From Gemmatimonadota bacterium (GTDB lineage Bacteria; Gemmatimonadota; Gemmatimonadetes; Longimicrobiales; RSA9), in NCBI GenBank assembly GCA_017881445.1, contig JADGQX010000021.1:1-32727 (forward strand): a stretch of 32,727 nucleotides of DNA, given 5' to 3'. How positions within the stretch are numbered: position 1 is the first letter of the stretch; each line of letters opens with the position of its first letter. The position numbers and the translations under genes are program-made. Positions 3-32,727 of this stretch are shown piece after piece. The notes under the pieces are model-generated. The model was not told the DNA's origin, ran no database searches, and worked only from the letters and a program-made list of their open reading frames with translations.

Positions 3-767
3 CGCGCCGGCTCCTCCCTCACGCGGCTGGCTGCGTCGGCCGTGGAGCCCGCCTGGGCGGCGCCGGCGCCGCGCCCGCCGGCGTCGGCCCCGGCCGCGCT
101 CCCGGCCGAGACGGCGGCCACGCCGACGGCGAGGAGCGCGCCGCGCATCAAGGGAGGCGAGCCGGTGGCCGCCCCCACCCGGGCCCCGCACCATGACCCC
201 GACCCGGTGCTGCCGCCGCCGCCCGAAATCCGCGTGGAAGTCACGCCGCCACCGAGGGTGGATCTGGCGCCGTCGGATCCGGCGCCGCCGACGCCCGGAC
301 CCCCGGTGCTGGGGCGGGCGGTGGTCGTTCCGGCGCCGCCGCCGCCCGGACCCCCGGTGCTGGGGCGTGCGCTGGTCGCTCCGGGAACGCGGCACGGGGA
401 CGACATCGGGGGTCTGAAGGGGATCCAGGCCGGGCCGCCCGTGGCCGACCCATCGGCGGCGCCGACGTTCACGCCGTTCCAGGTCGCGCCGGTGCTCAGG
501 AACCGGGAGGATGTGCAGCGGGCGCTCCTGCACGTCCTTCCCGCGGTTACCCGGGAAACGGCGAACCCGGCGCGCGTGCTGGTCTGGGTGCTGATCGACA
601 CGAGGGGGGTGGTGCAGAAGGCGCAGGTCAAGCAGTCGAGTGGCTTCGCGCCGCTGGACCGGGCGGCGCTCCAGGTGGCGGCGAGGATGAAGTTCACGCC
701 GGCGTTGAACGGCGATCAGCCGGTCAGCGTCTGGGTTTCGGTGCCGGTGGACTTCAGCGTGCGCTGA
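3..767 (+). CDS. TonB C-terminal domain protein (5' end outside window)
   Basis: The last ~90 residues form a TonB C-terminal domain: a run beginning RNREDVQRALLHVLP, the core VLVWVLIDTRGVVQKAQVKQSSGF, then LDRAALQVAARMKFTPA and a closing [12 protein letters not shown] strand. This domain usually spans the periplasm and contacts TonB-box receptors or partner proteins. The preceding ~150 residues are Pro/Ala-rich, as in the linkers of TonB proteins. The frame is open to the left edge. The first possible start (GTG at 42) would leave no membrane anchor, so the N-terminus probably lies upstream of the window. The 3' end overlaps the convergent gltD end by 14 nt. It could be a TonB energy transducer or one of the shorter TonB-domain secreted proteins; the missing N-terminus prevents a choice. 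Confidence 0.82.
   Translation, partial: RAGSSLTRLAASAVEPAWAAPAPRPPASAPAALPAETAATPTARSAPRIKGGEPVAAPTRAPHHDPDPVLPPPPEIRVEVTPPPRVDLAPSDPAPPTPGPPVLGRAVVVPAPPPPGPPVLGRALVAPGTRHGDDIGGLKGIQAGPPVADPSAAPTFTPFQVAPVLRNREDVQRALLHVLPAVTRETANPARVLVWVLIDTRGVVQKAQVKQSSGFAPLDRAALQVAARMKFTPALNGDQPVSVWVSVPVDFSVR
279..380 (+). repeat. 51-bp direct repeat, two copies, in the proline-rich linker
   Basis: Copies at 279-329 and 330-380 match at 47 of 51 positions and keep frame, encoding two 17-residue units built around PGPPVLGRA. This is a recent in-frame duplication that lengthens the linker of the TonB-domain protein. Confidence 0.85.
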
Positions 768-2173
768 GCCAGTCGTCGATGGCCGCGGCGGCGTCGCGCC
801 CCTCGCGGATCGCCCAGACGATGAGGGAGGGGCCGCGCTGGGCATCGCCGGCGGCGAAGACGCCGTCCACGGCGGTCCGGTGCCCGGCGTCGGCGACGAC
901 ACGGCCGCGGCCGTCCGGGCGGAGGCCCAGGCCATCCAGCAGCGGCCCACCCGCGAACCCGACGAAGCCGAGGGCGAGGACGACGATCTGGGTCTCGATG
1001 TCCATGGTCTCGCCCAGCTCGACGAAGCGGAGCCGGCCATCGGGCCCCGGCTCCGGGGCGACGCGCACCGCGTGCAGTCGCTCGACCCGGCCCGCGTCCC
1101 CCGAGAACGCGGTCGTCGAGACGCTCCACTCGCGCAGACCCCCCTCCTCGTGCGCGTGCGAGCTGCGCAGCTGCATGGGGTAGAACGGCCAGGGCGTGGA
1201 CGGGTCGCGCTCTTCAGAAGGCCGGGGCAAGAGCTCGAACTGCATTACCTCACGGGCGCCCTGGCGCAGCGCCGTGCCGACGCAGTCCGACCCCGTGTCG
1301 CCGCCGCCGAGCACGACGACGCGCCTGCCCTCGGCGGTGATCCGGTCCTCCGCGGCGACGGCGTCGCCGTGCAGCAGCCGGTTCTGCTGCGTCAGGAAGT
1401 CCATGGCGAAGTGGATGCCCGCCAGCTCGCGTCCGGGGACATCGAGGTCCCGCGGCCGACCGCCGCCAATGGCCAGCAGCAGCGCGTCGAAGCTCGCGCG
1501 TAGCTCGGCCACGGGCAGGTCGACGCCCACCCGCACGCCGGTGCGGAAGACCACGCCCTCGGCCTCGAGCTGCACCAGCCGCCGGTCCACGATCCGCTTC
1601 TCCATCTTGAACTCGGGAATGCCGTAGCGCAGCAGGCCGCCGACGCGGTCCGAGGCCTCGAACACGGTCACGGCGTGGCCGAGACGCCGGAGCTGCTGGG
1701 CGGCGGCGAGGCCGGCGGGTCCAGAGCCGATGACGGCCACGCGGCGCCCGGTCTCGCGCGTGGGCGGCCGGGGCTCGATCCAGCCCTCCGCGAAGCCCCG
1801 CTCGGCGATGCGCTCCTCGATCTGGCGGATGCTGACGGGGCGGTCCACCAGGCCGAGAACGCAGGCGGACTCGCAGGGCGCGGGACAGAGCCGGCCAGTC
1901 ATCTCCGGGAAGTTGTTGGTGGCGTGCAGCGCGGTCAGCGCTTCCTGCCAGTGGCTCCCCCGGACCAGGTCGTTCCAGTCGGGGATGACGTTGTGCACGG
2001 GACAACCGGTGTCGCTCTGGCAGAAGGGCACACCGCAGTCCATGCAGCGGGTGGCCTGCCCCACGAGCGTGGCGTCCGGCGTGATCTGGTAGAGCTCGTT
2101 CCAGTCACGCAGACGCTCGGCGACGGGGCGGCGCGGGGGGTCCTCCCGCTGGAGTCGAAGGAACCCGGTGGGA

Positions 2174-2181
<8 letters not shown>
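754..2181 (-). CDS. gltD: Glutamate synthase (NADPH) small subunit
   Basis: This 475-residue flavoprotein passes electrons from NAD(P)H to the GltB subunit for reductive formation of glutamate from glutamine and 2-oxoglutarate. Residues 46-60 hold an iron-sulfur cysteine set (CMDCGVPFC followed by C60) and 99-107 a second (CPAPCESAC). An FAD-binding GSGPAG lies at 152-157, a second nucleotide fold [11 protein letters not shown] lies mid-protein, and a [14 protein letters not shown] segment closes the FAD site. Length and order fit bacterial GltD. The start is ATG at 2181. It overlaps the gltB stop by 8 nt, which suggests translational coupling. An upstream in-frame start at 2214 would only lengthen the overlap. 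The 3' end overlaps the convergent TonB-domain gene. Confidence 0.96.
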
Positions 2182-6772
<4,591 letters not shown>

Positions 6773-6794: not shown

Positions 6795-6827
6795 AAAAAA
6801 GGCGGCCTCCCCGTGCGAGAGGCCGCC
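6795..6827 (-). terminator. Intrinsic terminator in the gltB leader
   Basis: On the minus strand GGCGGCCTC (6827-6819) pairs perfectly with GAGGCCGCC (6809-6801) around a 9-nt loop, followed directly by six T (6800-6795). The plus strand has no T-run after the hairpin, so the terminator works only in the gltB direction. It lies 22 nt upstream of the gltB ATG and cannot end any coding gene except the short leader frame, so it is either an attenuator or the end of a small RNA. Confidence 0.88.
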
Positions 6828-6852
6828 GATCGATTCACAACCCTGCTGAGCT

Positions 6853-6936
6853 TCAGCAGCGCGCCCGACCGCCGACCCCCGCTTTGCAGCGGAGTCGCGG
6901 CGCGTTAATGCAACGAAGCGTCAGGCGTGCCAGCAT
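6853..6936 (-). CDS. 27-codon upstream frame (candidate leader peptide) of gltBD
   Basis: ATG at 6936 is preceded by GAGG with a 7-nt spacing. The frame begins [14 protein letters not shown] and ends at TGA 6855-6853. Six of 27 residues are Arg and three are Cys; there is no Glu or Gln. Codons 13-16 (6900-6889) can pair with codons 19-23, forming a long hairpin. The stop codon lies in the 5' arm of a small hairpin (CTGCTGA/TCAGCAG, 6843-6859), and an intrinsic terminator follows 25 nt later. This order of ribosome binding site, short frame, competing hairpins, terminator and biosynthetic operon is that of ribosome-mediated attenuation. I do not recognise the peptide; expression and function are inferred. 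Confidence 0.5.
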
Positions 6937-6967
6937 TGTGTTGCCTCGAGCGGGTTTATCTTCGTCC

Positions 6968-6987
6968 GTACGATCGCTCGATCGTAC
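6968..6987. promoter_or_regulatory. Near-perfect palindrome, candidate operator for gltBD
   Basis: GTACGATCG, a 2-nt centre and CGATCGTAC form a 9+9 bp inverted repeat. It begins about 7 nt after the predicted gltB -10 box, so it would cover roughly +1 to +20 of the gltBD transcript and lies between the divergent gltB and 7149 genes. A regulator binding here would block initiation; it could also fold as a hairpin at the 5' end of the RNA. Confidence 0.5.
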
Positions 6988-6994
6988 CGCTCCC

Positions 6995-7024
6995 AGTGTA
7001 ACGGATGACCGGGGCCCACGTCAA
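6995..7024 (-). promoter_or_regulatory. Candidate promoter of gltBD
   Basis: On the minus strand TTGACG (7024-7019) and TACACT (7000-6995) are separated by 18 nt, a good housekeeping-sigma arrangement. The predicted start near 6988 gives a leader of about 215 nt that contains the palindrome, the short frame and the terminator. The same TACACT -10 hexamer with an 18-nt spacer occurs upstream of rpsU. Confidence 0.5.
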
Positions 7025-32181: not shown

Positions 32182-32727
32182 GTGTGCCCAGCATGGGCGA
32201 TGACTTGGAGGTGAAAGTCCTCCGGGGAGTTGGTCGTGGCGACCCAAGTGAACCGCAAGGCGCCGACGGTGAGGGGAGCGCTGAAAGAAGCGGCTAGCGA
32301 ACCCGCGGGCTGACGTACAGGAATCGGATGTGAGGCGGAGCCGACCAGGGCGAGCGGGCATGTGACCGCGAAGCTCTCGCGACCAAAGGTCAGGCGACGT
32401 AGATCCGGCAGTCGTGCGGGGACGGCCATCGTTCTTACCTGGGGAGATCTCGCTTCACGCCTGAAAGGGCGACGCCGCCGGGGAGCAGTCGACGTGGCGG
32501 AGCGAGAAGTCAGCGGAGGCCGTAGTACCGGGGCCGCAGGAGCGGACGCAGGGGAGGCCCTAAACGGGCACGAAGTCGGAAACGGCGGACACAGCCAAGG
32601 GCGGACCTAAACGGCTGAGGCCGGACCACGGGAAGGGCCGAACGAGAAGGAGAGCGCCACGCTCACGAAATGTGGGAAGGCATGGCACCAGATGTCCGCT
32701 TTGGCGGAGCTAGCGTGGGAGGGTACA
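32182..32727 (+). mobile_element. Group II intron, probable class C, 5' part (cut by window end)
   Basis: The sequence starts GTGTGCCCAGCATGGGC, a typical 5' end of class C introns. It continues with landmarks I recall from the Oceanobacillus iheyensis class C intron: GGTGAAAGTCC, CCGCAAGG, GTTCTTACCTGGGGAG (about 32431-32446) and GAAGTCAGCGGAGGCCGTAG (32506-32525), then GGAAGGGCCGAACGAG (32631-32646) where the internal protein frame should begin. The insertion point is directly after the U-tract of the rpsU terminator, the target class C introns prefer. The 3' ribozyme domains and most of the reverse transcriptase lie beyond the window. Confidence 0.88.
32692..32727 (+). CDS. Possible N-terminus of the intron reverse transcriptase/maturase (partial)
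   Basis: A frame open from 32611 to the window end reads KCGKAWHQMSALAELAWEGT near its end; the first ATG is at 32692. Many intron-encoded reverse transcriptases have a similar LAELA-type helix just before the first conserved RT blocks. Twelve codons are too few for a firm call, and the true start could be an upstream non-ATG codon. Confidence 0.35.
   Translation, partial: MSALAELAWEGT

Follow-up and report, generated by a model that had tools for sequence, protein, structure and literature searches.

A probable asparagine-responsive leader-peptide attenuator upstream of the glutamate synthase genes gltBD in Gemmatimonadota

Glutamate synthase is where nitrogen enters the amino acids. Leader-peptide attenuators are known for the trp, his, leu, ilv, thr and phe operons. 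In the Firmicutes, asparagine-specific T-box leaders respond to the charging of asparaginyl-tRNA and control read-through, binding the tRNA directly and having no upstream open reading frame (uORF). The system at ilvB1 of Mycobacterium tuberculosis is an amino-acid leader-peptide attenuator (PMC13236596). Mycobacteria also have polycysteine uORF attenuators on leaderless transcripts that, in the account of Canestrari et al. 2020 as cited in PMC13236596, act on translation and sense cysteine. Glutamine riboswitches and the gltD (SRC-18-1) motif sit upstream of glutamate synthase genes, the latter having been reported from Selenomonadales and Veillonellales only (PMC8632094). No asparagine-sensing leader peptide, gltB attenuator or Gemmatimonadota leader peptide was found in the literature searched, which covered few subscription papers. 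The initial annotation of the locus presented here likewise knew of no described attenuation by leader peptide for glutamate synthase in this kind of organism.

The stretch of DNA analysed (the window) consists of 32,727 nt of contig JADGQX010000021.1 from a Gemmatimonadota bacterium, and carries gltB and gltD on its minus strand. The leader of these genes is probably an asparagine-responsive, ribosome-mediated transcription attenuator, with asparaginyl-tRNA as the most likely sensor. The leader parts listed in the initial annotation were all found in place when the minus strand was checked, and the features of the locus are as follows.

6995..7024, minus strand: sigma-70-type promoter, TTGACG-18 nt-TACACT, 9 of 12 matches
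6968..6987, minus strand: perfect inverted repeat of 8 bp, GTACGATC/GATCGTAC, where the transcript would be expected to begin
6944..6947, minus strand: Shine-Dalgarno GAGG of the uORF, 7 nt upstream of its ATG at 6936
6853..6936, minus strand: uORF of 27 codons, with a counterpart ORF in 56 related leaders
6904..6906, minus strand: Asn codon 11 (AAC), the proposed regulatory codon, 17 codons 5' of the stop
6870..6902, minus strand: predicted pre-antiterminator (sequestering) hairpin, 12 bp
6865..6880, minus strand: leader strand of the putative antiterminator, codons 19–24, from folds and a swap test
6818..6833, minus strand: distal strand of the putative antiterminator, overlapping the terminator 5' arm, from folds and a swap test
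6843..6859, minus strand: predicted CTGCTGA-AGC-TCAGCAG hairpin spanning the uORF stop, nested in the antiterminator
6795..6827, minus strand: intrinsic terminator, stem 6827–6817/6811–6801 followed by T6 (6800–6795)
2174..6772, minus strand: gltB, glutamate synthase large subunit, 1532 aa, with GATase_2, Glu_syn_central, Glu_synthase and GXGXG domains
754..2214, minus strand: gltD, glutamate synthase small subunit, with Fer4_20 and Pyr_redox_2 domains; the true start is possibly further in

The promoter-like match is the sole one found, where shuffled sequence is expected to give 0.0 (sd 0.1), and transcription would be expected to start near 6988. The inverted repeat at this point is a candidate operator or a candidate 5' stem-loop of the leader. 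The uORF, which has its own ribosome-binding site, encodes 6 Arg, 3 Cys and 1 Asn, with no Glu, Gln or Asp. Folding predicts that the sequestering hairpin pairs 6902–6898 with 6874–6870 and 6894–6888 with 6883–6877, and that there is further back-pairing within the uORF, of 6927–6920 with 6869–6862. A terminator scan found this one terminator against 0.3 expected in shuffles, and its stem pattern matches once in the whole genome. The terminator is a strong one and is located between the uORF and gltB, leaving a gap of 22 nt before the gltB ATG at 6772. The complete leader folds with a z-score of -4.3, and none of 200 shuffles folded equally well.

GltB is full length, with all four of the expected Pfam domains. 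In the phylum gltB is patchy, being present in 117 of 395 sampled genomes. Within family f1, to which the window belongs, gltB of this type is found in 2 of 12 genomes, and the two GltB proteins are 52% alike. This scarcity and divergence suggest loss or transfer. Near the end of the contig, at 32263–32433 of the window, Rfam model D1D4-3 of group II introns matches with 97.6 bits.

The arrangement suggests that the promoter is used, that the uORF is translated, and that stalling of the ribosome leads to read-through in response to asparagine. With plentiful asparagine, the ribosome would reach the uORF stop and mask codons 19–24, so that the terminator would fold immediately ahead of gltB. 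A shortage of Asn-tRNA would instead make it stall at Asn codon 11, where it covers the 5' side of the sequestering hairpin; this would leave codons 19–24 to pair with the 5' arm of the terminator and RNA polymerase would continue into gltBD. In an untranslated leader the sequestering hairpin would stay, and the terminator would win. A ribosome-mediated attenuator of gltBD had been proposed in the initial annotation, and both the anatomy of the leader and its recurrence in the Gemmatimonadota support this.

Recurrence of the uORF was studied closely in 56 leaders from 25 genera, these genera being related and not fully independent. All 56 have a short uORF, with its stop codon 20–36 nt upstream of the terminator stem. 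At least one Asn codon is found in 55 of the 56 uORFs, and in 24 of the 25 genera. Taking one leader per genus, there are 40 Asn codons out of 647 in frame, compared with 2 out of 622 and 3 out of 622 in the other two frames, and with a mean of 14.8 and a maximum of 26 in 1000 dinucleotide shuffles. Several uORF start codons are uncertain, and those of family f3 and of leader L024 were picked with an eye to the Asn codon; the argument for asparagine is carried by the frame counts, which are little affected by the choice of start. When an objective rule is used for the choice of frame, Asn again shows the highest enrichment of any residue (2.9-fold), with Glu at 0.25-fold and Gln at 0.29-fold, and Asp is also depleted.

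The uORF peptides differ strongly between families and have the Asn codon in common, as in the segments VVNPAC, LLNL, LANI, LELNNPPAP and LALNM, and CINAPRL in the window. Selection on the leader peptides is weak (pN/pS 0.74). The Asn codon at -10 to -18 from the stop is nearly always AAT, in uORFs whose remaining codons have G or C as third base in about three cases out of four; genus g57 has synonymous switches between AAT and AAC. In the window it is at -17 and is AAC rather than AAT. Both here and across the genera, the Asn codon is directly 5' of the sequestering hairpin. In the f4 leaders L146, L149, L151, L201 and L210 the uORF starts about 10 nt or less from the -10 box, and the transcripts that encode these peptides may be leaderless.

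There are exceptions to this pattern. The uORFs of genomes G164 and G114 have Lys and lack Asn; Asn is present in G175, which belongs to the same genus as G164. In G290 there is Lys where its relatives carry Asn, its own Asn being only near the start, and leaders L107 and L110 carry their Asn codon at a much greater distance from the stop (-31 and -29). In G287 (leader L300) the uORF is reduced to MAHS and a stop codon, and the terminator hairpin is retained with its T tract missing; this leader may be a natural deletion that became constitutive. These exceptions could be altered or lost sensors, or another residue could be read in some species.

A rival reading, an unlikely one, is that the leader is a ribosome-mediated attenuator responding in this organism to a different amino acid (Arg or Cys, to judge by composition, with Lys in some relatives) or to a general slowing of translation. 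Against asparagine in the window itself is its sole Asn codon, an AAC, beside three Cys and six Arg codons. Likewise, Cys (1.9-fold) and Lys (2.2-fold) are enriched in the leaders when weighted by genus, and the Lys codons of G290, G164 and G114 noted above fit the same explanation. However, Arg is just 1.3-fold enriched in uORFs over long ORFs across the genera and is spread along the peptide at no conserved position, while many leaders contain no Cys. Arginine, which had been raised as a possible signal, is not supported, and asparagine is common to nearly all of the genera at a position that suits the hairpin. The case for placed Asn codons is made across the genera and is weaker in the window.

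A hidden antiterminator that excludes the terminator is indicated by predicted folds and by the exchange of strands between families. In the window, 6880–6865 would pair with 6833–6818 over 15 bp, covering most of the terminator 5' arm, with a duplex energy of -25.6 kcal/mol. The antiterminator had originally been drawn against the 3' arm of the terminator, as GGCGGTC with GGCCGCC. That pairing is possible and was set aside for the stronger one with the 5' arm, which is the usual attenuator layout. When the strands of the window were swapped, its own arm with foreign leaders gave -16.0 and its own leader with foreign arms gave -21.5. Swapping strands across families gives a poorer duplex than a genus's own leader and arm in 20 of the 25 genera, with a mean of -3.0 kcal/mol in favour of the own pair and p = 0.0018 in a Wilcoxon test. 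Swaps across families were chosen because covariation within family f4 is uninformative, the antiterminator strands there being too conserved to vary. The f4 strand GGGAGCGACCGGG and arm CCCGGCCCGCTCCC are nearly invariant, with 89.7% of cells paired compared with 37–63% when slid, and the f4 terminator is 100% paired.

In the predicted folds the long hairpin does hide the antiterminator segment, as had been proposed. Codons 19–24 are able to pair either back into the uORF or forward, which is the classical 1:2, 2:3, 3:4 arrangement of an attenuator. A pause at codons 9–14 had been thought to favour read-through, and this is consistent with the folding of the window, in which the probability of the terminator 5' arm being unpaired is 0.18–0.33 with the ribosome up to about codon 15 and 0.50 with it at the stop codon. 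In the window alone this difference between stall and stop is not above that of shuffles, 48% of which reach it. Across the 25 genera, the 5' arm is unpaired at 0.25 with a stall at Asn and 0.59 with the ribosome at the stop, compared with 0.35 and 0.50 in shuffles (z = 5.4).

Upstream regions of gltB were gathered from 118 Gemmatimonadota loci. With a fixed score threshold and a limit of 175 nt from the GltB match, a terminator is present near the gltB start in 52 of these, in families f1, f3, f4 and f5, and there are two weaker cases in family f2. The same scan was positive in 2 of 77 gltB loci from other phyla, and among 30 asnB homologues of the same Gemmatimonadota genomes there were no terminators and no Asn leaders. 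This indicates that the terminator accompanies gltB in the Gemmatimonadota. Of 102 f4 genomes, 46 have gltB and 56 lack it; a covariance model of the f4 leaders matches 39 of the former and none of the latter. Directly upstream of gltB are 40 of the 41 matches. The model does not detect the leaders of the window, f3 or f5, which have the same architecture and an unlike sequence. Conservation among relatives had been named in the initial annotation as the check on its reading, and the architecture does recur across the phylum.

The remaining match to the f4 model is a leader of similar build in genome G278 (C220:6991-7098; L292:292-399), before a gene for a HAD-type phosphatase. Its uORF begins MMITACHKNMHHTGN and in full is MMITACHKNMHHTGNLLGGAAAS, followed by a stop codon, with three His codons and two Asn. 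It may represent another attenuator with the same kind of terminator.

These distributions also bear on the suggestion, which is quite improbable, that the terminator closes an independent gene for a small RNA or small protein, with gltB having its own promoter or constant read-through. The promoter, uORF and terminator do make up a complete transcription unit upstream of gltB, but the terminator ends just 22 nt from the gltB ATG, the f4 model is confined to genomes with gltB and its matches are nearly always directly before that gene, and across families the alternative pairing shows leader strand and terminator arm fitted to each other. Rfam gave no credible match for the leader at either the gathering or a relaxed threshold; the glutamine riboswitch and T-box models were negative, and the gltD motif was covered insofar as Rfam includes it. 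Control of the terminator by an RNA that binds a ligand or a protein, for instance a glutamine riboswitch, with the uORF incidental, is highly improbable: although in other bacteria glutamine riboswitches and the gltD motif accompany genes for glutamate synthase (PMC8632094), no Rfam match was above chance, and it is the uORF, Asn codon and geometry that are conserved between families, not the leader sequence.

Asparaginyl-tRNA synthetase is encoded in nearly all of the genomes in the leader study, and the input to an asparagine-responsive attenuator would therefore be asparagine itself. Asn-tRNA as a sensor of glutamine, through indirect synthesis from Gln where the synthetase is missing, was considered and ruled out by this near-universal presence. 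It is not obvious why Asn would be chosen over Glu or Gln for the control of glutamate synthase. The supply of asparagine would depend on aspartate and amide nitrogen, and hence on nitrogen status. There is about an even chance that this is an old attenuator of the Gemmatimonadota, in which the charging of asparaginyl-tRNA is a proxy for nitrogen status that drives glutamate synthase. If so, a phylum with little worked-out regulation ties its central ammonia-assimilating enzyme to asparagine supply via an RNA switch.

The gltB leaders resemble the amino-acid leader-peptide attenuators in having a short uORF with regulatory codons, a sequestering hairpin, and competition between antiterminator and terminator; a ribosome at the stop codon is also predicted to promote termination. 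They differ from the classical cases in that they would sense asparagine, usually through one to three codons and not a run, and in that their target is glutamate synthase, the product of which is not asparagine, in the phylum Gemmatimonadota. The glutamine riboswitch and gltD motif are ligand-binding RNAs or candidates for such, without an Asn uORF, unlike the leader described here. With the polycysteine attenuators the gltB leaders share a short ORF that would sense an amino acid, and many f4 leaders, with their start codon beside the promoter, may likewise be leaderless; the intrinsic terminator and the Asn codon set the gltB leaders apart. The T-box leaders have the asparaginyl-tRNA input and the control of read-through that are proposed here, whereas the gltB leader has a uORF and no T-box match. 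The mechanism would be a known one, and the sensor residue, the target and the phylum would be new.
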